Of a stretch of 64,000 nucleotides of DNA, positions 5,323 to 40,650 are shown in pieces. Position 1 is the first letter of the stretch; every line of letters starts with the position of its first letter. The notes under the pieces were generated by a model, which was not told the origin of the DNA, did no database searches, and was given only the letters and a program-made list of their open reading frames with translations. The translations under genes were made by a program, and so were the position numbers. Origin of the DNA: Acidobacteriota bacterium (lineage in GTDB: Bacteria; Acidobacteriota; Blastocatellia; UBA7656); the NCBI GenBank assembly GCA_038040445.1, contig JBBPIG010000017.1, positions 1 to 64,000 of the forward strand, read 5' to 3'.

Positions 5323-8274
5323 ATGGCTGAAGATAATTCCTCGCCCGACAAGATCAAGCACCTCGATGATCGCCTGAATTACCTTGAGTTGGTGGCGCGT
5401 GACACTGCCGCTCGCCTGTACGAAATCGAGAAGAAGCTTGGCCTCGTCTTTCGCGCAGTGCCGCGCGAGTTCGAGGCAACGACCGAGGTCGATCGCGAAG
5501 CTCAGCTTTCTCGCCTGCGCGCCGCCGAAGAGGCGCTCAAACCGAACGCAACACCCAGGCCGCCTGCCACGCGCGTCAATGATCAGACAAAGGGTGAGGC
5601 TTCGACGCTTGCGCCGCCAACTTCGACCAAGGACCCGACAGAGAGTCCTCGTCCGCGCGCGGATGCGCCGCCGTCTCGGCCTTCCGACCGGCGCGTAATC
5701 GGCGTGCCCGTGCCGCAGGGCCCGCCGCCTGTCATTCCGCGAACGCCCGTTGAGCGGCAGCCTCGCGCGACGATGTCTACGATCTCAGTCAGCAGACCGC
5801 GGCAGGGCGAAGACCTTGAAGCTCGCATAGGCGGGAACTGGTTCAACCGCATAGGCGTCCTCGCTATCTTCCTGGGCGTCGCCTTCTTCTTGAAATACGC
5901 CGTCGACAATCAATGGATTGGGCCGGCAGGAAGAGTGCTGATTGGCGGGGCGATCGGCATCGCGTTTTTGATAGCTGGGGAACGACTGCGCAAACGATAT
6001 GCGAGCTACGCCTACGGTCTGACCGGCGGGGGCATCGCCGTGTTGTACGCGTCGATATGGTTCGCGTCGTTCAAGGTTTACGGCCTGCTCGCTCCGCCTG
6101 TCGCCTTCGCGTTGATGGCCGCGGTGACCGCAACGGCATCGCTGCTAGCCGCGAGATACAACGCTTTGCCAATCGCGGTGCTTGGACTGATCGGGGGATT
6201 CCTGACGCCGATCTTGCTTTCGACCGGCGTCGATAACCAAGCCGCCTTTTTCAGCTACATCGCACTGTTGGACCTCGGAGTGCTGGCGCTTGCCTATTCG
6301 AAACAATGGCGCAGCTTGAACTACCTGTCATTCATCGCCACGGTTCTAATGTTCGCCGCATGGATCGACGAGTGGTACCGGCCCGAGAAGCTGTGGACAA
6401 CAATTCTCTTTCTGACGCTGTTCTTCATTATCTTTGCGTTGCTGGCTGTGCTGTACAACGTAGTGAACCGCCGCGCGACCGGGTGGCTCGATCTGGCGAT
6501 GGTGTTCTCAAACGCGTTGCTCTACTTTGGAACGAGCTACTTGCTGCTCGATGATAAACACCACAACGATAGGTACCACGACGCGCTCGGTCTGTTTGCT
6601 TTGTTGGTGGCCGCGTTTTACCTGGGGCTGGGCTACTTCACCTATCGCCGCGACCGCGAAGACCGGCTGCTGGTATTCACCTTCCTCGGTCTGGGCCTTC
6701 TGTTCTCGATCCTCGCAGTGCCGATTCAATTCGATCAGCACTGGGTGACGATGGGCTGGGCAGTCGAAGGCGCGGTGATGACCTGGATCGGGCTGCGGGC
6801 AAACGACCGGACGTCGCGCTACGCCGGGCTCGTAGTATTCGTTATCGCCTTATCGCACTGGGTCCTGGTAGACGTACACGACTTTGCGTACGCTGAGCAG
6901 CTCGATTTCGTACCGCTGTTGAATCGCCGCGCGCTGTCGTGTGCTGTTCTTGTTGGTGCGCTCGCGGCTGCGGCGCTGTTCTACAAACGATACGGCGACA
7001 AGGCCGAGGAGCGGACGAGCTTCGCGGGACTCTTGATCCTGGCCGCGAACGGACTGGCCATCGCGTTGTTGACGATCGACGCGAACGATTTCTTCGAGCA
7101 ACGGAAGGCGCTCGAATCTGGCCGCGAGGCTGTTAGCTCGCTCGCCAATACCAAGGCGCTGACGTTGACCGCGCTGTGGGCGATCTATGGCCTGGCGACT
7201 CTGTTTGTCGGAATAACGCGCAAGCTGAAGCCGCTGCGGTTCCTTGCACTTGTTTTGCTAGCGGGCGCAACCATCAAAGTTCTGGCAGTTGATCTGAGGT
7301 ACTACGACGCGTCGTGGCACACGCTGATCGTGAATCAGACGTTCGCCGCTTTCGCAATAATAGTCTTCGCGCTCGCTCTTGCCGCTTCGTTCTACGCGCG
7401 CCCTCAGTACGCCGATGTCGAAGAGCGAGACGTGGTGCTTCCTCTCCTGATAGGCGCAGCGAACGGGCTTGCGATCGTTGCGTTGAGCGCTGAAGTCATG
7501 GGTCATTTCACCAGGATGAGAGCGGAACTTGGCGGTCAGGAAGCCGATCGCATCGAGAACACCAAGCAGTTCGTTCTCTCGGCTCTGTGGACGGTCTACG
7601 CGGCGGCGGCGCTGTTGATTGGGATCAAGCGAGGAGCGCGAGCGCTGAGAATAGGCTCGTTGCTGTTGCTTGCCTTCACAGTCGCGAAAGTACTGGTCGT
7701 CGATTTGTCTTACTACGATGCGCCGTGGCACACGTTGCTGTTCAATCAGACGTTCGCGACGTTCGCGGTGCTCGTGTACGCACTCGCCTCGAGTGCCAGG
7801 TTCTACGCTCATTCGGAGGTTGCTGACGACGACGAGCGCTCCATTCTAGTGCCGGTGCTGGTCGCAAGCGCGAACCTGCTGGCACTGGTCGCGCTCTCTG
7901 CCGAAGCGCTGGGTTACTACGCGGCGCAGATGAGCGCGGGCGGGGTGACGTCAGTGGCGCTGAGTGACTTGCGGCTGCCGCAACAGCTCTCGCTTTCGAT
8001 GGTGTGGGCGATCTACGGCGGCGCGATGCTGACTGTCGGAATCGCGCGTCGTAGCAAGCTGCTTCGAGTGATGGCGCTGTTGCTGCTGGGGCTGACGATC
8101 TTCAAGGTGTTTCTGTTTGATCTGTCGTCGCTCGTGAAACTGTACCGGATAATTTCGTTTATCGTGCTGGGCGCGATTCTGCTGGCGGTGTCGTTCCTGT
8201 ATCAACGCTATCGGCAACGTATGGCGGAGTTGATCGGGGACTCGGAGACACCGGAGCCGATGAGTGCGGAGTGA
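5323..8274 (+). CDS. DUF2339 polytopic membrane protein
   Basis: 983 residues. The N-terminus has a coiled-coil start (KIKHLDDRLNYLELVARDTAARLYEIEKKLG) and a Pro/Arg-rich disordered stretch to about residue 165. Then come the DUF2339 hallmark LEARIGGNWFNRIGVLAIFLG and more than 20 predicted hydrophobic helices. The C-terminal half contains a module repeated nearly three times, each with an ALWAIYG-like helix, a KVL-VDL motif and a YYDA-WHTL motif (the last copy is partial). DUF2339 proteins are widespread inner-membrane proteins of unknown function. GGAGG precedes the ATG. Confidence 0.85.
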   Translation: MAEDNSSPDKIKHLDDRLNYLELVARDTAARLYEIEKKLGLVFRAVPREFEATTEVDREAQLSRLRAAEEALKPNATPRPPATRVNDQTKGEASTLAPPTSTKDPTESPRPRADAPPSRPSDRRVIGVPVPQGPPPVIPRTPVERQPRATMSTISVSRPRQGEDLEARIGGNWFNRIGVLAIFLGVAFFLKYAVDNQWIGPAGRVLIGGAIGIAFLIAGERLRKRYASYAYGLTGGGIAVLYASIWFASFKVYGLLAPPVAFALMAAVTATASLLAARYNALPIAVLGLIGGFLTPILLSTGVDNQAAFFSYIALLDLGVLALAYSKQWRSLNYLSFIATVLMFAAWIDEWYRPEKLWTTILFLTLFFIIFALLAVLYNVVNRRATGWLDLAMVFSNALLYFGTSYLLLDDKHHNDRYHDALGLFALLVAAFYLGLGYFTYRRDREDRLLVFTFLGLGLLFSILAVPIQFDQHWVTMGWAVEGAVMTWIGLRANDRTSRYAGLVVFVIALSHWVLVDVHDFAYAEQLDFVPLLNRRALSCAVLVGALAAAALFYKRYGDKAEERTSFAGLLILAANGLAIALLTIDANDFFEQRKALESGREAVSSLANTKALTLTALWAIYGLATLFVGITRKLKPLRFLALVLLAGATIKVLAVDLRYYDASWHTLIVNQTFAAFAIIVFALALAASFYARPQYADVEERDVVLPLLIGAANGLAIVALSAEVMGHFTRMRAELGGQEADRIENTKQFVLSALWTVYAAAALLIGIKRGARALRIGSLLLLAFTVAKVLVVDLSYYDAPWHTLLFNQTFATFAVLVYALASSARFYAHSEVADDDERSILVPVLVASANLLALVALSAEALGYYAAQMSAGGVTSVALSDLRLPQQLSLSMVWAIYGGAMLTVGIARRSKLLRVMALLLLGLTIFKVFLFDLSSLVKLYRIISFIVLGAILLAVSFLYQRYRQRMAELIGDSETPEPMSAE

Positions 8275-8288
8275 CCAGCAGGGAGCGA

Positions 8289-8371
8289 CGATTGCCGATT
8301 GCCGACCTAGCAGCGCACCTCTGAAATCGGCAATCGCAAATCGGCAATCGCAAATCGGCAATCGGAAATCG
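8289..8371. repeat. heptamer inverted repeat (GATTGCC / GGCAATC)
   Basis: Two or more copies of GATTGCC on the left are answered by three copies of the reverse complement in degenerate 7-nt periodicity on the right, forming a potential long hairpin between the DUF2339 and transaldolase genes. The same heptamer recurs at 41095-41182. Confidence 0.75.
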
Positions 8372-9694: not shown

Positions 9695-9772
9695 GTCAGA
9701 GATCAGAAGGCAGAAGGCAGAAAGCAGAAGGCAGCCTTCTGCCTTCTGCCTTCTGCCTTCTGACTTCTGACC
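9695..9772. repeat. heptamer inverted repeat (AGAAGGC / GCCTTCT)
   Basis: About four tandem copies of AGAAGGC run directly into about four copies of the reverse complement with almost no loop, giving a near-perfect hairpin immediately after the transaldolase stop codon. It could act in transcript termination or stability (inference), although no T tract follows. The same heptamer recurs at 23942-24007. Confidence 0.8.
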
Positions 9773-20275: not shown

Positions 20276-20824
20276 CTACCCAACCGAAACGCCGGGTTCT
20301 TCCATGAACAGATACTTGCGCCACTCCCATCGCGACTCGGCAGCGTGGCGCATCGAAGCTCGCTCGATGCCGTAGGTCAAAGCAGCCGGATTTGCCAGCA
20401 GTGGCATCCGTGCTTCCTCGGGAGTGCGGTTGCCCTTGCGCTGGTTGCAAGCGAAGCAAGCGGCGCACAGATTGTCAGCCACGGTTCGTCCGCCGCGCGA
20501 ACGCGGCAGAATGTGGTCGATCGTCAGGTCGAAAGGACCGCCCTTCATTCCGCAATATTGGCAGCGGTACCGGTCGCGCGCGAGAATTCGCGAGCGTTTG
20601 GTGCTCGAGCGTCCCTGTCGTCCTCTCACGTCCACATACGCGATCAGTCGAATGACGCTCGGCGCAGGAAAGACGAAGTGCTGCGAGCGAAGCACACGGT
20701 CGCCGTCCAGCTCGACCACCTCAGCCGAGCCTTTCCAGACCAGGCGGACTGCGCGAGGAGTGTTGACGATGCCCAGCGCCTCGTAAGAGGCGTTTAGCAG
20801 CAGAACTCTTCGTGTTAGCAACAT
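20276..20824 (-). CDS. HNH endonuclease
   Basis: 182 residues from ATG 20824 (GGAAG upstream; an in-frame GTG lies 6 nt earlier). The HNH core is clear: RCQYCGMKGGPFDLTIDHILPRSRGG, then NLCAACFACNQRKGNRTPEEA, giving two C-x2-C zinc pairs and the DH catalytic dyad. The N-terminal part (VLLLNASYEALGIVNTPRAVRLV) is typical of the broad stand-alone HNH family found in many bacteria, whose substrate is generally unknown. It is the last gene of the tRNA/RNA-repair island on the minus strand, separated from the first tRNA by a heptamer hairpin; a link with the tRNAs is possible but not shown. Confidence 0.88.
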   Translation of the reverse strand: MLLTRRVLLLNASYEALGIVNTPRAVRLVWKGSAEVVELDGDRVLRSQHFVFPAPSVIRLIAYVDVRGRQGRSSTKRSRILARDRYRCQYCGMKGGPFDLTIDHILPRSRGGRTVADNLCAACFACNQRKGNRTPEEARMPLLANPAALTYGIERASMRHAAESRWEWRKYLFMEEPGVSVG

Positions 20825-20832
20825 AATCACTT

Positions 20833-20947
20833 CCGCTCAGGGTTCAGGGTTCCGAGTTCAGGGTTCAGAGTTCAGGGTGGGTTGAACCACCACCAATCAT
20901 CAACCCTGAACTCGGGACCCTGAACTCGGAACCCTGAACCCTGAACC
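20833..20947. repeat. heptamer inverted repeat (GTTCAGG / CCTGAAC)
   Basis: Runs of GTTCAGG-like heptamers (some GTTCCGA variants) are answered by CCTGAAC-like heptamers across a short loop containing TTGAACCACC. The same heptamer builds the hairpins at 36387-36473 and 40574-40650. Confidence 0.75.
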
Positions 20948-20956
20948 ATTACATCG

Positions 20957-21031
20957 TGGAGCCGGCGACCAGATTCGAACTGATGTCTACTGCTTACGAG
21001 ACAGTCGCTCTTCCCATTGAGCTACGCCGGC
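20957..21031 (-). tRNA. tRNA-Thr (CGT)
   Basis: Full cloverleaf with acceptor GCCGGCG/CGCCGGC, anticodon loop CTCGTAA, T loop TTCGAAT, encoded CCA (TCCA end). Last tRNA of the array in the transcription direction. Confidence 0.9.
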
Positions 21032-21091
21032 AAATCTGACCGACGACCGGAGACAACAGACCGTCGTCGGTCTTCGGTCGTCTGTCGTTAG

Positions 21092-21163
21092 TAGTCGGGG
21101 AAGGAATCGAACCTTCAACATCCGGTTTGTAGGACCGGCGCCATACCATTAGGCCACCCGACC
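21092..21163 (-). tRNA. tRNA-Val (TAC), with C33
   Basis: Acceptor GGTCGGG/CCCGACT (one G-T pair), D arm GCC/GGC, anticodon stem CCGGT/ACCGG, loop CCTACAA: position 33 is C instead of the near-universal U. No encoded CCA. The body resembles Gln-type tRNAs. Confidence 0.75.
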
Positions 21164-21172
21164 AGAAAGAGC

Positions 21173-21254
21173 CTGGGAGCGCTGGCATCCTTGACTGCTT
21201 CTGTTTCGTTACTCCTCGCGCCAAACGGGCAGACAAGGATGCCTGCGCTCCCAG
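21173..21254. repeat. long inverted repeat between tRNA genes
   Basis: Arms reading GGGAGCGC(T)GGCATCCTTG and the near-complementary CAAGGATGCCTGCGCTCCC flank about 40 nt. A related GCAGGCA/TGCCTGC hairpin occurs at about 4650-4675, before the MarR gene. MITE-like or REP-like element inserted in the spacer between tRNA-Val and tRNA-Gly. Confidence 0.6.
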
Positions 21255-21256
21255 AG

Positions 21257-21328
21257 AGCCTCGTGTGAGAGTCGAACTCACGCTATCGGTTTGGAAGACC
21301 GAGGTCATAGCCGCTAGACCAACGAGGC
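21257..21328 (-). tRNA. tRNA-Gly (TCC)
   Basis: Acceptor GCCTCGT/ACGAGGC, anticodon stem TCGGT/ACCGA with loop CTTCCAA, T arm GTGAG-TTCGACT-CTCAC. No encoded CCA. Confidence 0.9.
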
Positions 21329-21339
21329 TTGAGGTTCAT

Positions 21340-21452
21340 AGTTCAAGCTTCAGCTTGCCCACGCACTGTGCAGCCTGAAGGCGGAACTCTGAACTTGCAT
21401 ATGGTTTAGAGTTCAAGCTTCAGCTTGCCCGTGCCCGCAGCCTGAACTCTGA
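21340..21452. repeat. two direct copies of a short palindromic repeat
   Basis: AGTTCAAGCTTCAGCTTGCC occurs at about 21340-21359 and 21410-21429, each followed by a complementary CAGCCTGAA...GAACTCTGAAC tail. A third copy lies at 25862-25918 in the same tRNA array. Confidence 0.65.
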
Positions 21453-21462
21453 ACTTCTCGAG

Positions 21463-21535
21463 AGCTTCGTGCTGGATTCGAACCAGCGCTGCCGGTTTAC
21501 AGGACCGGAGTCATAACCAACTAGACCAACGAAGC
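21463..21535 (-). tRNA. tRNA-Thr (TGT), with C33
   Basis: Acceptor GCTTCGT/ACGAAGC, anticodon stem CCGGT/ACCGG, loop CCTGTAA with C at position 33. No encoded CCA. Confidence 0.8.
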
Positions 21536-21539
21536 GCAG

Positions 21540-21615
21540 TGACTCCGGCGAGACTCGAACTCGCGCCCTTCGCTTTCGGAGAGCGACGCTCTTGATCCAT
21601 CTGAGCTACGGAGCC
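21540..21615 (-). tRNA. tRNA-Arg (CCG)
   Basis: Acceptor GGCTCCG/CGGAGTC, D stem GCTC/GAGC, anticodon stem TCGCT/AGCGA with loop CTCCGAA. No encoded CCA. Only 4 nt from the preceding tRNA. Confidence 0.88.
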
Positions 21616-21626
21616 GTATTCAAAAG

Positions 21627-21699
21627 CGCGGACGGCAGGACTCGAACCCGCATAGACTTGTTCCGAAGACAAGCGCCTGATCCATTCGGCCACGTCCGC
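21627..21699 (-). tRNA. tRNA-Arg (TCG)
   Basis: Acceptor GCGGACG/CGTCCGC, anticodon stem CTTGT/ACAAG with loop CTTCGGA. No encoded CCA. Confidence 0.88.
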
Positions 21700-21702
21700 A
21701 AG

Positions 21703-21775
21703 CTGCGAAGCCAGGGGTCGAACCTGGAGTCTCTCGGGTCAAAGCCGAGCGTGTTGCCAGTTACACCACTTCGCA
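21703..21775 (-). tRNA. tRNA-Gln (TTG)
   Basis: Acceptor TGCGAAG/CTTCGCA, D arm GTGT/ACAC, anticodon stem CTCGG/CCGAG with loop CTTTGAC. The first 10 nt of the gene (GCGAAGTGGT) are repeated in tandem just upstream at 21776-21785. No encoded CCA. Confidence 0.88.
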
Positions 21776-21790
21776 CCACTTCGCAAATAT

Positions 21791-21866
21791 TGGTGGTTGG
21801 GGCCGGATTCGAACCGGCTTCCTCTGGAGCTTCACACCAGCGCTCTTCCTAATGAGCTTCCCAACC
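21791..21866 (-). tRNA. tRNA-Phe (GAA)
   Basis: Acceptor GGTTGGG/CCCAACC, loop GTGAAGC giving anticodon GAA, encoded ACCA. The anticodon stem has a T-T mismatch at its loop-proximal pair. Its first 19 nt recur exactly at 22767-22785, in the leader of the neighbouring RNA ligase gene. Confidence 0.82.
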
Positions 21867-21978
21867 CTGATTCGAGGATTGAAGATCGAGGATGGACGAT
21901 CGAGCATGGGTCTCGGGCAATCTTCCATCCTCCATCTTCTATCCTCGATCCTCAATCCTCTATCCTCCATCCTCAGTT
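21867..21978. repeat. heptamer inverted repeat (GGATCGA-like / TCCTCCA-like)
   Basis: GAGGATTGAAGATCGAGGATGGACGATCGAG-type heptads on the left are answered by about eight TCCTCNA heptads on the right, forming a long imperfect hairpin between tRNA-Phe and the RNA ligase stop codon. Confidence 0.7.
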
Positions 21979-22002
21979 TTCGGCATGGAACGGCAGCGCG
22001 GA

Positions 22003-22749
22003 TCACGGCCGCCAGTTCCACACTGCTTCATTGCCGGACATCTCCGGCAAGTAAACTCCATCCACCTTGTCGCGCCGGACGAACTTCGCCAGGAAGTCGA
22101 CCTCATTGCGACGCTCGCTTCCGCGGCCTTCGTTCGCCAACCGATTTCGCTCGACGCGCCACACAGCGCCTTCCACCTTATCCAGCGCGCCGTGAAACCC
22201 GAACTCACCGAGCCGCAGCAGGGCTCTCTCGATGCTCAGCGGCCCTCCCCGGTGGATCACCGCCGGCGTGATGAACCCGGCGGAATTGACCCGCGACACC
22301 AGTTCGTCGTAGATCGCGCGGCGGCTCCCAGTCATCAAGTCAAACGCGACGAATGGCTCGTGCCTCAACGAGTAGCGAGTGCCATGTGCTTGCATCAGCC
22401 ATTCACCGCACAGACGCTCGCCGTCTTGCAGCACGAGCATGAAGCGGTCTTGATTCGCGTAAACCCACTCTGCGAATCTCCAGTGCTGTTCGTAAGGCGA
22501 ACTGCCGGCCAGGTAGCCCGCCCGCGACAGCGGAAAAAGCATTCCATCAAGCCTCGCAACCGCGACGTTCGATCCATCCAGCTTCTCTTGAACGATGACC
22601 ACGTCGTGGCGGTCACGAGGCTTCTCAGTCGCGATGCGCTTCTGACCCTCGTGGCACTTGTGATCGCCGGGGCCCATTCGCGAGCCGGGCAGATGCGCGA
22701 TGTGACCGTAGCTCTTACCGCCAAGCGGCTTTCTGTTTTCTAAGTTCAT
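22003..22749 (-). CDS. RNA ligase family protein (T4 Rnl2-like nucleotidyltransferase)
   Basis: 248 residues. Covalent nucleotidyltransferase motifs are in order: motif I QEKLDGSN with the AMP-accepting Lys56, motif III FVAFDL, motif IV VEGAVWRV, motif V DFLAKFVR. Such enzymes adenylate the 5'-phosphate and seal 3'-OH/5'-PO4 RNA ends. A His/Cys-rich segment before motif I (MGPGDHKCHEGQKR) may bind metal (inference). GGAGGGAG lies 8 nt before ATG 22749. Directly upstream of that site is a 19-nt copy of the 5' end of tRNA-Phe. It lies inside the tRNA array, on the same strand and between two heptamer hairpins, so it is probably produced from the array transcript or a local promoter and acts on cleaved tRNAs (inference). 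Confidence 0.85.
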   Translation of the reverse strand: MNLENRKPLGGKSYGHIAHLPGSRMGPGDHKCHEGQKRIATEKPRDRHDVVIVQEKLDGSNVAVARLDGMLFPLSRAGYLAGSSPYEQHWRFAEWVYANQDRFMLVLQDGERLCGEWLMQAHGTRYSLRHEPFVAFDLMTGSRRAIYDELVSRVNSAGFITPAVIHRGGPLSIERALLRLGEFGFHGALDKVEGAVWRVERNRLANEGRGSERRNEVDFLAKFVRRDKVDGVYLPEMSGNEAVWNWRP

Positions 22750-22766
22750 CGCTGCGTCTCCCTCCC

Positions 22767-22785
22767 CCTAATGAGCTTCCCAACC
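22767..22785 (-). repeat. duplicated 5' end of tRNA-Phe (19 nt) in RNA ligase leader
   Basis: Exactly matches positions 1-19 of tRNA-Phe (21848-21866): acceptor 5' strand plus the first half of the D arm (GGTTGGGAAGCTCATTAGG). The flanks beyond the match are also similar, so the two form direct repeats bracketing the ligase gene. It sits 3-15 nt upstream of the ligase ribosome-binding site. Confidence 0.85.
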
Positions 22786-22965
22786 GTGATCGAGAATCGA
22801 GGATTAAGGATCGAGGATCGAGGATCGAGGATCGAGGATCGAGGATCGAGGATCGAGGATTGAAGATCGAGCACCGACCTCGGGCAATCATTCTATTTTC
22901 AATCTTTCTATCGTCTATCCTCAATCCTCGATCCTCCATCCTAATCCTCGATCCTCTATCCTCGA
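22786..22965. repeat. heptamer inverted repeat (GATCGAG)n / (CTCGATC-like)n
   Basis: At least seven perfect tandem GGATCGA heptads (about 22805-22860) are followed, after a spacer with TCTATTTTCAATC, by complementary TCCTCGA/TCCTCAA heptads to 22965. This is the longest heptamer hairpin in the window and separates the two RNA ligase genes. Confidence 0.85.
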
Positions 22966-23927
22966 GCCTTCTCCAGGTACCCGTTTGATACGACCTTCAA
23001 GCAGACACGGCCAATCTCAAGGTCGGTCCTCTCGCGCAAAGGTTTGACCACAATCCCTTCGCGAAAGTGTTGAGCTCCCGGAATCAAGCTCGGCCCTTCC
23101 GCAAGCGCAAACACCCGCTCCGCTTCGAACGGGATGTGAGTCGCGACCCGCGGCACCCAGGGCAACTCGGGCGCCAGATCGCAAGCCGCTTCAGCATCGA
23201 CCCACTCGGCGCGATCGAGAATGTCGAATAAGGCCACTCTTATCTCGCCGGGTCTCGTGCCGTACTTCAAACGCTGCACGCTGCCGTAGACCTCGCCGTA
23301 AACCGTCATCTCCGGATTCCGTTCACAGAAGCCGGCGATCTCCGGACACTGGCCGAGAGCCTTCCACCAGAGGTTGTTCTCGTCGTACTTCTTCCACGTG
23401 CCCCGGCTGCCGGCGCGCATGCGGCCGCCGGCGTAGCAGAACCGTGCGTTCGCCCCGTGAATCTTCTCGGTGACCCACACCGGCTCGCCCTCGACGAACA
23501 CGTGAGCGAATCGCCGTAGCGAGTCCACATCGTAGCTCGGATGGAATCCGGCGGGCGCGCCCTCTTCGTCGCCGCGAGCCATCAAAGGCAGCGGCGGCTC
23601 GTAGTGCGACACGCCGAGCAATTCCGCGACATCTTCGCCGAGTTGTGTGCCGTCGGGCGCCGGCATCAACAGACCCATCGACACAACCCCACGCAGCCGC
23701 TTGACTCGGATGCGTTCATGGCCGGCCAGAAAGGCGAACTCAGGCCGCGCGCTGTCTACAACCGAGTCCGGCGGTATGTAAGCGCCCAGCTCTATGCCGC
23801 GCCAATCCTCCGTGCGAACGCAGACGGTGTAGCCACCGAAGACCCGCACGACAGAGAGGCTATCCGCGTTAGGGTGCGGCTCGAGAATGACTCGAACCAC
23901 TTCAACTTTGTGTGTGCTCTTTTCCAT
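22956..23927 (-). CDS. RNA ligase, DRB0094 (Rnl5)-like, with N-terminal OB domain
   Basis: 323 residues from ATG 23927 (GGGGAT upstream); the upstream extension of the frame is tRNA sequence and was rejected. Residues 1-100 form an OB-like domain (VEVVRVILEPHPNADSLSVVRVFGG) with the HPNADSL phrase typical of tRNA-binding OB folds. The catalytic domain has motif I VTEKIHGANAR with Lys155 and the KxHG variant typical of Deinococcus DRB0094-type ligases, YGEVYGSVQ, motif III VALFDIL, motif IV REGIVVKP and motif V VCLKVVS. Characterised relatives seal nicked RNA with 3'-OH/5'-PO4 ends. The gene is embedded in the tRNA array next to a second, different ligase, pointing to tRNA repair (inference). 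Confidence 0.88.
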   Translation of the reverse strand: MEKSTHKVEVVRVILEPHPNADSLSVVRVFGGYTVCVRTEDWRGIELGAYIPPDSVVDSARPEFAFLAGHERIRVKRLRGVVSMGLLMPAPDGTQLGEDVAELLGVSHYEPPLPLMARGDEEGAPAGFHPSYDVDSLRRFAHVFVEGEPVWVTEKIHGANARFCYAGGRMRAGSRGTWKKYDENNLWWKALGQCPEIAGFCERNPEMTVYGEVYGSVQRLKYGTRPGEIRVALFDILDRAEWVDAEAACDLAPELPWVPRVATHIPFEAERVFALAEGPSLIPGAQHFREGIVVKPLRERTDLEIGRVCLKVVSNGYLEKARG

Positions 23928-23941
23928 GACTTCTATCCCCG

Positions 23942-24007
23942 TTCCGCGCTGCCTTCTCGGCTCTGCCTTCCGCCTTCTGCCTTCTGCCTTCTGACTTCTG
24001 ACTTCTG
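23942..24007. repeat. heptamer repeat (CTTCTGC)n
   Basis: Tandem CTTCTGC/CTTCCGC/CTTCTGA heptads between the Rnl5-like gene and tRNA-Ala; one-sided, without an opposing arm. The same unit forms the right arm of the hairpin at 9695-9772. Confidence 0.7.
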
Positions 24008-24081
24008 GTGGAGCGCTAGGGAATCGAACCCTACTCACCTTGCTTGCAAGGCAAAGTCGCCACCTTGGTACATGGCGCCCC
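24006..24081 (-). tRNA. tRNA-Ala (TGC), atypical D arm
   Basis: Acceptor GGGGCGC/GCGCTCC, anticodon stem TTTGC/GCAAG with loop CTTGCAA, encoded ACCA. The D arm pairs only as CCA/TGG with the two linker bases 8-9 apparently consumed, so folding is unusual. Confidence 0.8.
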
Positions 24082-24090
24082 ATTTTCAAG

Positions 24091-24163
24091 TCGGGGTCCC
24101 GAGAGTCGAACTCGGACTCTCCTGCTCCCAAGGCAGGCGGCTTTCCATCAAGCCTTGACCCCG
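24091..24163 (-). tRNA. tRNA-Pro (TGG)
   Basis: Acceptor CGGGGTC/GACCCCG, anticodon stem CCTGC/GCAGG with loop CTTGGGA. No encoded CCA. Confidence 0.9.
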
Positions 24164-24168
24164 AAAAG

Positions 24169-24240
24169 CTCGGGCGGGAGGACTCGAACCTCCGCAAGTC
24201 CGGTTAACAGCCGGATGCTCTGCCTCTGAGCTACGCCCGA
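24169..24240 (-). tRNA. tRNA-Asn (GTT)
   Basis: Acceptor TCGGGCG/CGCCCGA, anticodon stem TCCGG/CCGGA with loop CTGTTAA, discriminator G. No encoded CCA. Only 5 nt from tRNA-Pro. Confidence 0.9.
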
Positions 24241-24246
24241 ATGAAC

Positions 24247-24462
24247 TCAAACGTCTACGTCCGACGGATTGGCGACATATCGCACTGTTCCGTGCGTCTC
24301 CTCGCTGATCCGCGACTCGCTTTCGGCAATCGCTCCATCGCACGACTCGTCCAACGAATCCCCGAACTCGGTTCGGCGTTCGTGTCGCGGATGGATCGCC
24401 TCGACATCCCACCGCCGGTCAGTCAGCAAGTCCACTATTCTGAATCGCGCCCCTTGTTTCAT
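24247..24462 (-). CDS. small unknown protein encoded inside the tRNA array
   Basis: 71 residues, starting ATG 24462 with an excellent GAGGTGAG ribosome-binding site immediately upstream. The product is charged: MKQGARFRIVDLLTDRRWDV at the start, a Glu/Asp/Ser-rich middle (FGDSLDESCDGAIAESESR) and a DVDV end. It stops 6 bp before tRNA-Asn. No known domain recognised. Its place between tRNA genes with a strong translation start suggests a real component of the island. It could be a small regulator or antitoxin-like protein, but nothing in the sequence proves this. Confidence 0.5.
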   Translation of the reverse strand: MKQGARFRIVDLLTDRRWDVEAIHPRHERRTEFGDSLDESCDGAIAESESRISEETHGTVRYVANPSDVDV

Positions 24463-24475
24463 CGCTCACCTCAAA

Positions 24476-24548
24476 TGGCTCGAGGCGGAATCGAACCGCC
24501 GGCGACCGACTTATGAGATCGGCGCTCTGCCGTCTGAGCTATCGAGCC
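24476..24548 (-). tRNA. tRNA-Met elongator or Ile2 (CAT)
   Basis: Acceptor GGCTCGA/TCGAGCC, D stem GCTC/GAGC, anticodon stem CCGAT/GTCGG with loop CTCATAA. It lacks initiator features. CAT could also be an Ile tRNA modified to lysidine; not distinguishable here. No encoded CCA. Confidence 0.85.
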
Positions 24549-24622
24549 GCAGAACACGACCGATGACCGATGACCAGCGACAGTAGCGGTCCCCCGTCTC
24601 CGGTCTCCCGTCGTCCCTTCAG

Positions 24623-24695
24623 AGCCCGCGGCGGGAATTGAACTCGCCACCTCTCGATTACCGATCGAGTGCTCCGCCATCTGAGCTTCGCGGGC
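24623..24695 (-). tRNA. tRNA-Thr (GGT), with C33
   Basis: Acceptor GCCCGCG/CGCGGGC, anticodon stem CTCGA/TCGAG, loop TCGGTAA with C at 33. The T stem has an A-C mismatch and the T loop is TTCAATT. No encoded CCA. Confidence 0.75.
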
Positions 24696-24699
24696 AAAA

Positions 24700-24783
24700 C
24701 TGATTTCGAATTGCGAATTTCGGATTTCGAATCTCTGGATTGGCCAAACCAATTCGCAATTCGAAATTCGCAATTACCAATCT
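24700..24783. repeat. AT-rich heptamer inverted repeat (GAATTGC-like)
   Basis: Degenerate heptads (GAATTGC, GAATTTC, GGATTTC, GAATCTC) then, after TTGGCCAAACC, the complementary series (AATTCGC, AATTCGA, AATTCGC). A potential hairpin between tRNA-Thr(GGT) and tRNA-Lys(TTT). Confidence 0.65.
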
Positions 24784-24788
24784 CCTCA

Positions 24789-24861
24789 TGGGCCGCGTGG
24801 GAGTCGAACCCACTACCTCTCGATTAAAAGTCGAGAACTCATCCTGATGAGCTTCCGGCCC
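24789..24861 (-). tRNA. tRNA-Lys (TTT)
   Basis: Acceptor GGGCCGG/GCGGCCC (one G-G mismatch at 7:66), anticodon stem CTCGA/TCGAG with loop CTTTTAA. No encoded CCA. Confidence 0.85.
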
Positions 24862-24864
24862 AAG

Positions 24865-24953
24865 TAGTCCCGCCGAGATTCGAACTCGGATCACGCGGTA
24901 ATCTGCCGCTTGCAGGGTATAAGGCTGCCGCTCTACCGTTGAGCTACGGGACT
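24865..24953 (-). tRNA. tRNA with Ile anticodon TAT and a long (class II) variable arm
   Basis: 89 nt. Acceptor AGTCCCG/CGGGACT, D stem GCTC/GAGC, anticodon stem GCAGC/CCTGC (one C-C mismatch) with loop CTTATAC. A 22-nt variable region contains its own stem GCGG/CCGC. T arm CCGAG-TTCGAAT-CTCGG. Long variable arms belong to Leu, Ser and Tyr tRNAs, so an Ile anticodon on this body is abnormal. Charging identity unknown. Confidence 0.65.
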
Positions 24954-24968
24954 GTTCTAGAACAACTG

Positions 24969-25042
24969 ATGCGCCCGTAGGGACTCGAACCCTCCTCCCA
25001 GGTTTAAGAAACCTGTGCTTCGCCATCAAAGCTTCGAGCGCA
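24969..25042 (-). tRNA. tRNA-Lys (CTT)
   Basis: Acceptor TGCGCTC/GGGCGCA, anticodon stem CAGGT/ACCTG with loop TTCTTAA. No encoded CCA. Confidence 0.85.
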
Positions 25043-25045
25043 CAG

Positions 25046-25120
25046 CGCTGGCGGCAGGATTCGAACCCGCGTTGACTGCTTTAGAAGAGCAGCGCCTTCG
25101 TTCCGCTCGGCCACGCCAGC
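25046..25120 (-). tRNA. tRNA-Arg (TCT)
   Basis: Acceptor GCTGGCG/CGCCAGC, anticodon stem CTGCT/AGCAG with loop CTTCTAA. No encoded CCA; 3 nt from tRNA-Lys(CTT). Confidence 0.9.
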
Positions 25121-25132
25121 ATTCATAAATCA

Positions 25133-25207
25133 GCGGGATCGACGAGATTCGAACTCGCGTAGTCTTGATCGACAATCAAGTGCCTGTGCCTCTCGGCCAC
25201 GACCCCG
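25133..25207 (-). tRNA. tRNA-Asp (GTC)
   Basis: Acceptor CGGGGTC/GATCCCG, anticodon stem CTTGA/TCAAG with loop TTGTCGA. The D arm GTGGCC/GGC is of the Arg/Leu-like type rather than a usual Asp body. No encoded CCA. Confidence 0.82.
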
Positions 25208-25211
25208 ATGG

Positions 25212-25285
25212 CGGCGATGGCGAGACTCGAACTCGCTAGGACTGAGTTGAGAACCCAGGCGCTCGACCGCTTTGCATTCATCGCC
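25212..25285 (-). tRNA. tRNA-Glu (CTC)
   Basis: Acceptor GGCGATG/CATCGCC, anticodon stem CTGGG/CTCAG with loop TTCTCAA. Shares its unusual D region (AATGCAAAGCGGTCGAGCG) with tRNA-Glu(TTC) at 25692, suggesting duplication within the array. No encoded CCA. Confidence 0.82.
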
Positions 25286-25290
25286 GTGTA

Positions 25291-25363
25291 TACCGCCTCC
25301 AGGAGTTGAACCTGGACTCTTCCGCTAATCGGGCGGACGTGTTGCCAGTTACACCAAGGCGGC
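25291..25363 (-). tRNA. tRNA-Ile (GAT), with C33
   Basis: Acceptor GCCGCCT/AGGCGGT, D arm GTGTAACTGGCAACAC shared with the Gln-type tRNAs here, anticodon stem TCCGC/GCGGA, loop CCGATTA with C at 33. No encoded CCA. Confidence 0.75.
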
Positions 25364-25375
25364 GTGCTTCTCTCG

Positions 25376-25457
25376 GACGTAGCGCACGCCGCCTGGCTTG
25401 CGTTTCTTGGTTTTGATCGCGGCCCTCCGGACGCAAGCCGGCGGCGTGCGCTACGTC
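25376..25457. repeat. long inverted repeat between tRNA-Ile and tRNA-Gln
   Basis: Arms starting GACGTAGCGCACGCCGCC and ending in its complement GGCGGCGTGCGCTACGTC flank about 30 nt; each arm is about 26 nt with one or two mismatches. MITE-like hairpin inside the array. Confidence 0.7.
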
Positions 25458-25472
25458 TGTGCTTCAAAGAAC

Positions 25473-25548
25473 TGGCTCCGGGAGAAGGCCTCGAACCTTC
25501 ACTCTCCGATTTCAGAGACCGGCGTGTTGCCACTTACACCATCCCGGA
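25473..25548 (-). tRNA. tRNA-Gln (CTG)
   Basis: Acceptor TCCGGGA/TCCCGGA, D arm GTGT/ACAC, anticodon stem CCGGT/ATCGG with loop CTCTGAA, encoded GCCA. Confidence 0.9.
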
Positions 25549-25612
25549 ACTAATAGCCTTGCATCATTCGTCCTATCGGTTCCTATTTCATCCTATGTCC
25601 CGCGAAACCAAG

Positions 25613-25684
25613 GGTGACTGGAGAGAGTCGAACTCTCTAAAAGCGGTTCCACAGACCGCCCCCGAGCCGTTTGGGTTCAGCCAC
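25613..25684 (-). tRNA. tRNA-His (GTG)
   Basis: Acceptor GTGGCTG/CAGTCAC, discriminator C73 with a G encoded at -1 (25685), both classic His determinants. Anticodon stem GCGGT/ACCGC with loop CTGTGGA. No encoded CCA. The D arm is C/G-rich and irregular. Confidence 0.85.
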
Positions 25685-25691
25685 CACTAAG

Positions 25692-25765
25692 CAGGGATGG
25701 AGAGACTTGAACTCTCTAAGCCAGGCTTGAAAAACCTGTCGCTCGACCGCTTTGCATTCATCCCC
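25692..25765 (-). tRNA. tRNA-Glu (TTC)
   Basis: Acceptor GGGGATG/CATCCCT, anticodon stem CAGGT/GCCTG with loop TTTTCAA, same D region as tRNA-Glu(CTC). No encoded CCA. Confidence 0.83.
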
Positions 25766-25779
25766 GTTTCAAACATCGA

Positions 25780-25853
25780 TGCGGGAGAGGAGAATCGAAC
25801 TCCTAAGACGCTCGGTTTAAGCGAGCGATGTCTGCCTGTTGCATCACTCCCGC
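25780..25853 (-). tRNA. tRNA with Leu anticodon TAA on a class I body
   Basis: 74 nt: acceptor GCGGGAG/CTCCCGC, weak 3-bp D stem, anticodon stem GCTCG/CGAGC with loop CTTAAAC, only 5 nt of variable loop (GTCTT). Bacterial tRNA-Leu normally has a long variable arm. No encoded CCA. Confidence 0.7.
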
Positions 25854-25861
25854 GAAAGTTC

Positions 25862-25918
25862 TGAGTTCAAGCTTCAGCTTGCCTTCTGCGCCAGTAACCT
25901 GAAGGTTGAACTCTAAAC
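25862..25918. repeat. third copy of the GTTCAAGCTTCAGCTTGCC repeat
   Basis: Same palindromic element as at 21340-21452, lying between tRNA-Leu(TAA) and the initiator-like tRNA. Confidence 0.6.
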
Positions 25919-25920
25919 GC

Positions 25921-25999
25921 TGGTAGCGGAGTCCGGAGTCTCACCGGATGATTTGCTGGTTATGAGCCAGCCGAGCCTGGTTCCTGCTCCATCTCCGCA
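25921..25999 (-). tRNA. initiator-like tRNA-Met (CAT), divergent T loop
   Basis: Initiator features: unpaired T1-T72 at the acceptor end, TGGAGCAG D-region phrase, loop CTCATAA and an encoded ACCA. Deviations: the anticodon stem is GCTGG/CCAGC, so only two of the three conserved G-C pairs remain. The T loop reads TGAGACT instead of TTCAAAT, and three bases separate the acceptor and D stems. Confidence 0.75.
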
Positions 26000-26004
26000 T
26001 CAAG

Positions 26005-26078
26005 AGCACGCGGTGAGATTCGAACTCACGATGACCGGTTTTGCAGACCGGCGCCTTAACCAACTTGGCTACGCGTGC
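26005..26078 (-). tRNA. tRNA-Cys (GCA)
   Basis: Acceptor GCACGCG/CGCGTGC, D arm GCC/GGC, anticodon stem CCGGT/ACCGG with loop CTGCAAA, discriminator T as expected for Cys. No encoded CCA. Confidence 0.9.
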
Positions 26079-26087
26079 GACAACGTT

Positions 26088-26161
26088 TGGAGCTTCGTGC
26101 GGGAATCGAACCCGCGCTTTCGCCATGGCAAGGCGACGTCATTCCACTAGACCAACGAAGC
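26088..26161 (-). tRNA. tRNA-Gly (GCC)
   Basis: Acceptor GCTTCGT/ACGAAGC, anticodon stem TCGCC/GGCGA with loop TTGCCAT, encoded TCCA. Acceptor stem identical to tRNA-Thr(TGT) at 21463. Confidence 0.9.
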
Positions 26162-26212
26162 GGCTTCCGAATCTCAAATCTGAAATCTGGAATCCGAAAC
26201 CTGCAATTGATG

Positions 26213-26289
26213 TGGTGCTGGCGGAAGGATTCGAACCTTCACCAAACTGGGTTTGAGCCAGTCACCTCTACCGATTGGGTCACGCCAGC
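26213..26289 (-). tRNA. tRNA with Leu anticodon CAA on a class I body
   Basis: Acceptor GCTGGCG/CGCCAGC, D stem ACC/GGT, anticodon stem ACTGG/CCAGT with loop CTCAAAC, 5-nt variable loop (TTGGT), encoded ACCA. The long variable arm of tRNA-Leu is missing. Confidence 0.75.
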
Positions 26290-26323
26290 ACACAATCACG
26301 CATCACGTTTCACGCATCAATGT

Positions 26324-26401
26324 TGGTACCGGCGGAGGGATTCGAACCCTCATCAACTGGTTTCTAAGACCAGTGCCTCTGCCAGGTTGGGCCACGCCGG
26401 T
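26324..26401 (-). tRNA. tRNA with Leu anticodon TAG on a class I body
   Basis: Acceptor ACCGGCG/CGCCGGT, D stem GCC/GGC, anticodon stem CTGGT/ACCAG with loop CTTAGAA, 5-nt variable loop (TTGAT), encoded ACCA. Confidence 0.75.
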
Positions 26402-26404
26402 ACA

Positions 26405-26442
26405 TTCGAGGACCGCCGTGTTGCCAGTTACACCATGCTCCC
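26405..26442 (-). pseudogene. 5' half of a tRNA (38 nt), abutting tRNA-Leu(TAG)
   Basis: Contains acceptor 5' strand GGGAGCA, D arm GTGTAACTGGCAACAC (identical to Gln/Ile relatives here), 5' anticodon stem GCGGT and a full loop CCTCGAA, then stops at position 38. No 3' half follows; after 3 nt the next tRNA begins. Confidence 0.75.
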
Positions 26443-26451
26443 GAGTAGCAC

Positions 26452-26535
26452 AGACTTCAGTCTGTAGTGGCGCAGGACTTCAGTCTGTGGACAGTCCGCC
26501 CGCTAACGAGATTCCACAGACTGAAGTCTGCGCCA
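26452..26535. repeat. ACTTCAGTCTGT direct and inverted repeats
   Basis: Two direct copies of GACTTCAGTCTGT and one inverted copy (ACAGACTGAAGTC) with complementary GTGGCGCAG/CTGCGCCAC flanks fill the spacer between the half-tRNA and tRNA-Tyr. Confidence 0.75.
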
Positions 26536-26539
26536 CGTA

Positions 26540-26623
26540 TGCTGAGCGAAGGAATCGAACCTCCAATGACCGCTCGGGTCGCCTGATCTACAGTCAGGTG
26601 CAATGCCACTCTGCCAGCTCAGC
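26540..26623 (-). tRNA. tRNA-Tyr (GTA)
   Basis: 84 nt with a long variable arm as expected for Tyr; acceptor GCTGAGC/GCTCAGC, anticodon stem CCTGA/TCAGG with loop CTGTAGA, discriminator A. First tRNA of the array in transcription order. No encoded CCA. Confidence 0.9.
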
Positions 26624-27105: not shown

Positions 27106-28614
27106 TTAATGGTGCTTGCTCGACTGTCGGTTCGAGCGCTTGCCCCGTCTTCCGCCTGCGCCCTCAGTTCCCTTCAACGAAGCAAGCGGCCACAAGCTGT
27201 ACTCAATCCTCGCGAGCCCAGCGCCGACAACCGCGCCGACTACTTCTGCCGACGGCTTGTAGCACAGCGCTGATTCATCAATCGGCACGTGGCCATCGAC
27301 GTTCACAAGGATTCCCGCAGCCGCGTACTCATCATCAATCTTGCGCTGATTCAAAGTTCTCCCAGCTTCGCCTCTCGACATTCGCCGGCCTGCGCCGTGG
27401 TTCACTGAGTAAGCGCTTCGCACCGCGCCCGCCTCGGGCCGCAGCACGTAGCTCCAGTCTTTGTTCGAGCCGGGAATCAACACCGGATGACCCGTGTGCT
27501 CCCACATCGTTCCTTCAAGCGCCGGATGCCCCGCGGGAAAAGCTCGAGTCGCGCCCTTGCGATGCACCCACACCTCGCCGAACTCCGGGTGCCATTCCTT
27601 CTGGACGAGATTGTGAGAAATTTCATAGATCAACTCCATCTCGCCGCCAAACACCTTCTCGAACGCTTCGGCTACCTGTTCGAAGATGATCAAGCGGTTG
27701 ATGATCGCAAAGTTGCCGCCCGCCGCCACCGCGTTCAAGTAGCTGCGATAGTGCTCCGACTCCGGTGTGAAGTAGCCAAGATCAAGATCCGTGATGACCT
27801 CAGGCTTCTCCGCGCGCGCCAAGTCGAAGTAGTTAGTCGCCAGTCCGTGTCCCCAGCCTCGCGAGCCGGTGTGCGCTTGCACGAACAGCGTGCCCGTCTC
27901 TTCGCAACGCTGCAGCTCGATGAAGTGGTTGCCACCACCGAGCGAGCCAAGCTGCGAGAACCCACGCTCGGGCCTGCCTCGGGCACCAATCGGCGGCTGC
28001 CAGTCATCATCAACCGGCAGACGGTGACGTTCAGCACGTGAGCGATCGAACGTTGCGCCGTACTTTTCGACGTAGCACTCGGCGCCTCCGTGAACAAGAT
28101 TATCGAACTCATGTCGATCAACAGTGCCAAGCTTGAAGCTCTTTCCGCCGGCGCCGAGGTCAACACGCTTCATCACCTCGCGATTGAACTCGAGTCTTCG
28201 CTCAGGCGTGGCGGCATCGACCGGAACGTCACTCTTTGCGCTGACCATCCCGCAGCCGATGTCGTAGCCTACGGGCCCCATCGCGATCGCCCCGTCCCGC
28301 GAGTCCGTCAAGATCACACAGCCCACGGGCACGCCGTAACCGTAGTGAACGTCGGGCGTGATGACCACGAGCTTCACGCCAGGGAACCGAGTCGCGTTGA
28401 TGATCTGGCGATAGAGAATGTCTTCGGCGTCTGCCAGAAGTCGCGGCGTAAGAAACATTCTCACCGGCACATCGCGAGTGTCCTCAGTGCGCAGTTCGTA
28501 GTAACCCTCGCCATTCCACCGAGCGAGAAGTTTCCAGTTGTGCGCATTTGCGAGGTCATTGCTTTCTTTCCTAGCCCCTCGCATAACCAGCCCGTTCTCT
28601 AGCGTGCCTCTCAT
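27106..28614 (-). CDS. rtcB: RtcB-type RNA-splicing ligase
   Basis: 502 residues. RtcB signatures are all present: VITPDVHYGYGVPVGCV, GYDIGCGM with the metal-binding Cys, SLGGGNHFIE, VQAHTGSRGWGH, YEISHN and SVNHGAGRRMSR containing the guanylated histidine. RtcB joins 2',3'-cyclic phosphate or 3'-phosphate ends to 5'-OH ends using GTP and Mn2+, i.e. the ends left by most tRNA-cleaving toxins. The C-terminal tail (about 20 residues) is a low-complexity Gly/Arg/Lys segment. No RtcA, archease or Ro60 gene is adjacent. It lies directly upstream of the tRNA array on the same strand, separated by a terminator-like hairpin. The start is uncertain: ATG 28614 or the Met ten residues in. Confidence 0.95.
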   Translation of the reverse strand: MRGTLENGLVMRGARKESNDLANAHNWKLLARWNGEGYYELRTEDTRDVPVRMFLTPRLLADAEDILYRQIINATRFPGVKLVVITPDVHYGYGVPVGCVILTDSRDGAIAMGPVGYDIGCGMVSAKSDVPVDAATPERRLEFNREVMKRVDLGAGGKSFKLGTVDRHEFDNLVHGGAECYVEKYGATFDRSRAERHRLPVDDDWQPPIGARGRPERGFSQLGSLGGGNHFIELQRCEETGTLFVQAHTGSRGWGHGLATNYFDLARAEKPEVITDLDLGYFTPESEHYRSYLNAVAAGGNFAIINRLIIFEQVAEAFEKVFGGEMELIYEISHNLVQKEWHPEFGEVWVHRKGATRAFPAGHPALEGTMWEHTGHPVLIPGSNKDWSYVLRPEAGAVRSAYSVNHGAGRRMSRGEAGRTLNQRKIDDEYAAAGILVNVDGHVPIDESALCYKPSAEVVGAVVGAGLARIEYSLWPLASLKGTEGAGGRRGKRSNRQSSKHH

Positions 28615-40573: not shown

Positions 40574-40650
40574 TTCGGGGTTCAGGGTTCAGGGTTCAGG
40601 GTTCAGGGTTTCAAACCCGGAACCACGAACCACGAACCCGGAACCGGGTT
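40574..40650. repeat. heptamer inverted repeat (GGTTCAG)n between nuoK and nuoL
   Basis: Four perfect TTCAGGG heptads followed by CCGGAACCACGAACC-type complementary heptads; fills the nuoK-nuoL spacer. Confidence 0.8.

Follow-up and report, generated by a model that had tools for sequence, protein, structure and literature searches.

The window (the whole stretch of 64,000 nt from an Acidobacteriota bacterium that was analysed) carries a dense tRNA array of ~30 genes at 20957..26623, recognized with ARAGORN and Rfam, with 27 ARAGORN tRNAs in 5.7 kb. Two extra array tRNAs (25212-25285 and 25692-25765) scored above the Rfam cut-off, and another one (25613-25685) was a weak Rfam match. All genes, spacers, and tRNA fragments of the locus given here are on the minus strand. 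A gene for an RtcB-family RNA ligase (27106..28614) lies upstream of the array, and an HNH endonuclease gene (20276..20830) is at its downstream end. Forty further tRNAs were found elsewhere in the genome. Array and housekeeping tRNAs with the same anticodon were 53-74% identical in the 12 pairs compared, with about 64% identity for tRNA-Phe, and seven array anticodons have no counterpart in the list of housekeeping tRNAs found, which may be incomplete. With at least 20 densely placed tRNAs that cover many isotypes and are redundant with those of the chromosome, and with an adjoining HNH gene, the locus has the features of a tRNA array unit. Homologues of the HNH endonuclease are present in 146 of the 162 genomes of the class, and at least five tRNAs were located within about 1.5 kb at 14 of the 30 HNH loci inspected (L139-L168). 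The gene is often found where a tRNA array ends.

Coded within the array are two predicted ATP-dependent RNA ligases. RNA ligase A (248 aa, 22003..22749) matched the PF09414 profile with 71.8 bits at a cut-off of 27, and its nucleotidyltransferase motifs EKLDG, FVAFD, EGAVWR, and KFVR are intact. Residues K56-D58-G59, E193-G194, and K222 were invariant among 31 aligned sequences, and the lysine nucleophile of KxDG is present. By profile and motifs, ligase A is an ATP-dependent RNA ligase, with the activity predicted from its sequence. Its structure model (pLDDT 96) consists of the nucleotidyltransferase domain, with no additional C-terminal domain in the 248 aa. In the fold search, the model was similar to T4 Rnl2 and to Naegleria RNA ligase alike (Z about 15, 187-194 aligned residues), at about 13-18% identity; a phmmer search of the PDB with ligase A alone gave no match. 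The predicted nucleotidyltransferase fold is like that of both ligases, but full-length T4 Rnl2 has a C-terminal part, whereas ligase A has hardly more than the nucleotidyltransferase domain. The second enzyme, RNA ligase B (323 aa, 22956..23927), is of the DRB0094/Naegleria type (Rnl5-like) and ATP-dependent by prediction. Its score of 140 bits against an equivalog cut-off of 151 places it near the DRB0094/Naegleria ligases, with which it probably belongs, rather than formally among them.

The intact tRNA-Phe(gaa) gene lies at 21791..21866 (ARAGORN; Rfam RF00005, 57 bits). Its nt 1-19, GGTTGGGAAGCTCATTAGG (21848..21866), recur exactly at 22767-22785 in the leader of ligase A, beside the ribosome-binding site, as the earlier note had read from the letters alone; both copies were confirmed by genome-wide search and alignment. 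The leader 19-mer ends 17 nt 5' of the ligase A ATG (22749) and overlaps the ribosome-binding site of the ligase. When extended to 24 nt (22762..22785), the leader copy differs from tRNA-Phe by two mismatches (AA to GG), while the next-best 24-mer of the window has five mismatches to nt 1-24 and belongs to another tRNA. With up to three mismatches allowed, the 19-mer was found at only these two places in the 6.7-Mb genome, the reversed control gave 0 matches, and the chance expectation from base counting is ~5e-5, which rules out a chance match. A class-wide search for the tRNA-Phe 5' end yielded only one match, with two mismatches, in genome G023, and no tRNA gene was found around it. In frame with ligase A, the fragment has a TAG (22768-22770) that six codons separate from the downstream ATG. 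It runs into the Shine-Dalgarno-like GGGGGAGGGAG (22758-22768) and supplies part of this motif, a good match that precedes the ATG by 8 to 11 nt.

Further similarity beyond the 19 nt had also been noted; it is real but extends mainly on the 5' side, where it corresponds to a duplicated spacer with a heptamer hairpin. In the alignment, a collinear direct repeat of ~130-180 nt (21843-21974 on the Phe side, 22762-22942 on the ligase side), which includes the hairpin spacer upstream of tRNA-Phe, has the 19-mer at its 3' end. Both copies have the order heptamer arm, apex GATTGCCCGAG-N-TGCTCGATC, opposite arm, ATCA, and then the tRNA 5' end. The spacer upstream of tRNA-Phe is at 21867..21974 and its duplicate upstream of ligase A at 22786..22942, the latter with one block of extra heptamers of ~48 nt. 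The 104-nt core of the repeat is 84% identical, and the spacers differ from each other by about 16%, which speaks against an assembly artefact. Heptamer arms of this type are dispersed through the genome and its relatives, and similarity of the arms alone is therefore little proof. The apex GATTGCCCGAG..N..GCTCGATC together with these arms was found only at the two spacer sites genome-wide, further exact matches of the apex motif being unrelated sequence with no arms, so the likeness of the spacers is not merely that of dispersed heptamers. The collinear repeat and the apex with arms at two places only point to a local duplication of the spacer and the tRNA start. Rfam microRNA matches in the spacers were below the cut-off and represent the heptamer hairpins. 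Several families of heptamer-type repeats and short hairpins, dispersed in this genome and in relatives, were also seen in the intergenic spacers at 21340-21360, 21410-21430, 25864-25883, 20837-20944, 8324-8364, 9734-9771, and 40578-40610.

Ligase A is present in only three of the 162 genomes of the class, and at the other two class loci there is no tRNA nearby. A quick tree, in which many forks were weak, did not group ligase A of the window with the other two class members; ligase A is close to rows from Chloroflexota, Cyanobacteriota, and viral contigs. Arrays of the same family have no ligase A, and their tRNA-Phe genes are without the spacer hairpin. The order is HNH-ligB-Thr-Phe-Arg-Ala in genome G006 (two contigs that share an exact 120-nt overlap), Arg-Phe-Gln-ligB-Gly in G005, and Gln-Phe-Arg in both G002 and G004. 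The position of the ligase B gene differs between these arrays, so it too moves about within the array. No tRNA-array match was found in G001, the only genome of the same genus, which is 92% complete. As for the same arrangement or an empty site in relatives, related arrays without ligase A do exist, but no exact empty site was found among them, and the order around tRNA-Phe is different in every one. RtcB and RtcA genes are directly upstream of the G006 array (L112 2541-3992), and in the G005 array two tRNA-Arg genes flank a 372-aa reading frame with no Pfam match (L113 4207-5325).

The repeat is most readily explained, with a probability of about 0.78, as a local duplication of the spacer and tRNA-Phe, of which the truncated copy became linked to a ligase A gained by horizontal transfer. 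A segment with the hairpin spacer and tRNA-Phe would have been duplicated locally in the spare tRNA array, the upstream tRNA-Phe copy would have been cut after about nt 24, and the cut copy would then have been joined to the ribosome-binding site of a ligase A gene from outside the lineage. This would have led to the order now present on the transcribed strand: ligase B, spacer, tRNA-Phe nt 1-24, ligase A, spacer, intact tRNA-Phe. We infer both the order of these events and the horizontal origin of ligase A. Since the gene order around tRNA-Phe varies across related arrays, duplication with truncation, a one-step insertion with a long duplication, and recombination between heptamer arrays are not distinguishable from each other. 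The fragment in the leader is most likely a pseudo-tRNA scar in the tRNA array; any co-option would go no further than a contribution to the Shine-Dalgarno region. That the array gives rise to truncated tRNAs in any case is seen from a second orphan tRNA 5' half with a Gln/Ile-like D arm (about 26407..26444), which is directly upstream of tRNA-Leu(tag), has an exact 19-nt match to tRNA-Gln, lacks the 3' half, and does not adjoin any coding gene. For a leader copy that alone drifted, at half the divergence of the spacers, no change in 19 nt would have a probability of about 0.20 and two or fewer changes in 24 nt one of about 0.69; with both copies drifting freely, 19/19 identity would have a probability of about 0.03. 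The intact tRNA-Phe is expected to be under constraint, and with the value of about 0.20 for drift of the leader copy alone, the identity of the 19-mer needs no selection.

The earlier note had proposed recombination at the 5' end of the tRNA, and in this general form the proposal gains support from the collinear duplication, from the absence of the ligase in related arrays, and from its patchy distribution. A specific version, in which a ligase cassette was integrated site-specifically at the tRNA-Phe 5' end and element-borne sequence regenerated the tRNA, is modelled on genomic islands that regenerate tRNA 3' ends and appears unlikely. Direct repeats on both sides of ligase A, its patchiness, and its closeness to rows from other phyla and viral contigs would fit such an event. 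Yet the interval between the repeats is filled by the ligase A reading frame only, with no integrase seen there, and the repeat takes in the whole heptamer-rich, diverged spacer of ~110-160 nt rather than an att core of short length. Neither a related cassette with ends of this kind nor an exact empty site was found. The plasmid and phage collections gave only distant ligase homologues (<60%). A role of the leader in cis is about equally improbable. Here the hairpin and the tRNA fragment would control translation of ligase A, through base pairs between the C-rich heptamers and the purine-rich Shine-Dalgarno region; the hairpin in the ligase-side spacer is predicted to be far more stable than shuffled sequences (z -5.6, 0 of 200 shuffles), and the minimum-energy model pairs a part of the leader adjoining the Shine-Dalgarno region. 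This stability, however, comes from the inverted repeat of dispersed heptamers, which intact tRNA-Phe has upstream too, and taken by itself the short leader does not stand out (z -1.5). By inspection, none of the ~80 homologues of ligase A from bacteria and viral contigs has a similar leader.

It is still less probable that the hairpin and the fragment form a co-opted leader coupling ligase A translation to tRNA-Phe status or to that of the array transcript. Least credible is the mimic or sensor put forward in the earlier note, in which the fragment would bind the ligase, a tRNA-processing enzyme, or tRNA 3' halves and so sense cleaved tRNA. Nothing but the closeness of a tRNA fragment to an RNA ligase favours it. 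The 19-24 nt of the fragment comprise just the 5' acceptor strand and half of the D arm, with the anticodon arm, the T arm, and the acceptor strand of the 3' side all missing, and no acceptor partner strand CC(C/T)AA(C/T)C was found between 22301 and 22960. A fragment without the 3' acceptor, anticodon, and T arms should not qualify for substrate recognition by tRNA enzymes. No T-box was found at Rfam E <= 10, and inspection of the ~80 homologues revealed no conserved structured leader of the T-box or mimic kind. In the Calothrix array, the ligase is behind a complete tRNA instead. With parts of the tRNA missing, no homologue carrying the fragment, the other orphan half beside no gene, and drift sufficing for the identity, the idea of a functional mimic finds no support.

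The tRNA array units known from mycobacteria and from mycobacterial phages and plasmids likewise carry dense, diverse, and redundant tRNAs together with an HNH endonuclease, which is their most widespread gene (PMC5966550, PMC12803027). Here, in contrast, the array is from Acidobacteriota, two ATP-dependent RNA ligases are predicted in it, and RtcB is upstream; the words "ligase" and "RtcB" are absent from the main text of both papers. The trn operon of Anabaena PCC 7120 is also a spare array, of 26 tRNAs, tied to rtcB and HNH: according to the portions of PMC10272220 available, it is repressed by TrcR, and the rtcB and HNH genes belong to the TrcR regulon too, induced by translational stress. 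In Anabaena, however, rtcB is elsewhere in the genome, and those portions describe no ligase inside the array. Homologues of ligase A with 63-65% identity are also located inside tRNA arrays of Calothrix and relatives (L013-L018), with 20-28 tRNAs at five of the six loci and seven at L014. In L013, the one annotated array, HNH and PARG-like genes are within the array and EF-Tu is beside it. The Calothrix ligase lies between complete tRNA-Arg and tRNA-Ala genes, behind tRNA-Arg, and its leader, unlike that of ligase A in the window, is without a tRNA fragment. In L017, pieces similar to tRNA-Leu(tag) were seen apart from each other, at 5953-5972 and 6153-6200. Partial, non-functional tRNA copies also arise beside the inserted DNA of integrated genetic elements, as stated in the accessible part of PMC9897764. 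The leader fragment resembles them in being a partial tRNA copy, but at this locus the duplication takes in the upstream spacer as well as the 5' end, and no integrase accompanies it.

Under the preferred reading of a local duplication followed by truncation, coding genes may enter tRNA arrays via duplication of a tRNA and its spacer and subsequent loss of most of the spare copy, and this loss can leave tRNA sequence as the leader of a gene. The locus adds an Acidobacteriota array carrying its own RNA-repair enzymes, as in the Calothrix arrays. By analogy with tRNA array units, the Anabaena trn operon, and studies on phage tRNAs and ligases (PMC10264068, PMC7824862), the array may supply spare tRNAs together with repair enzymes when stress damages tRNAs, and the presence of RNA-repair genes within it would be in line with arrays being back-up tRNA sets during tRNA damage.
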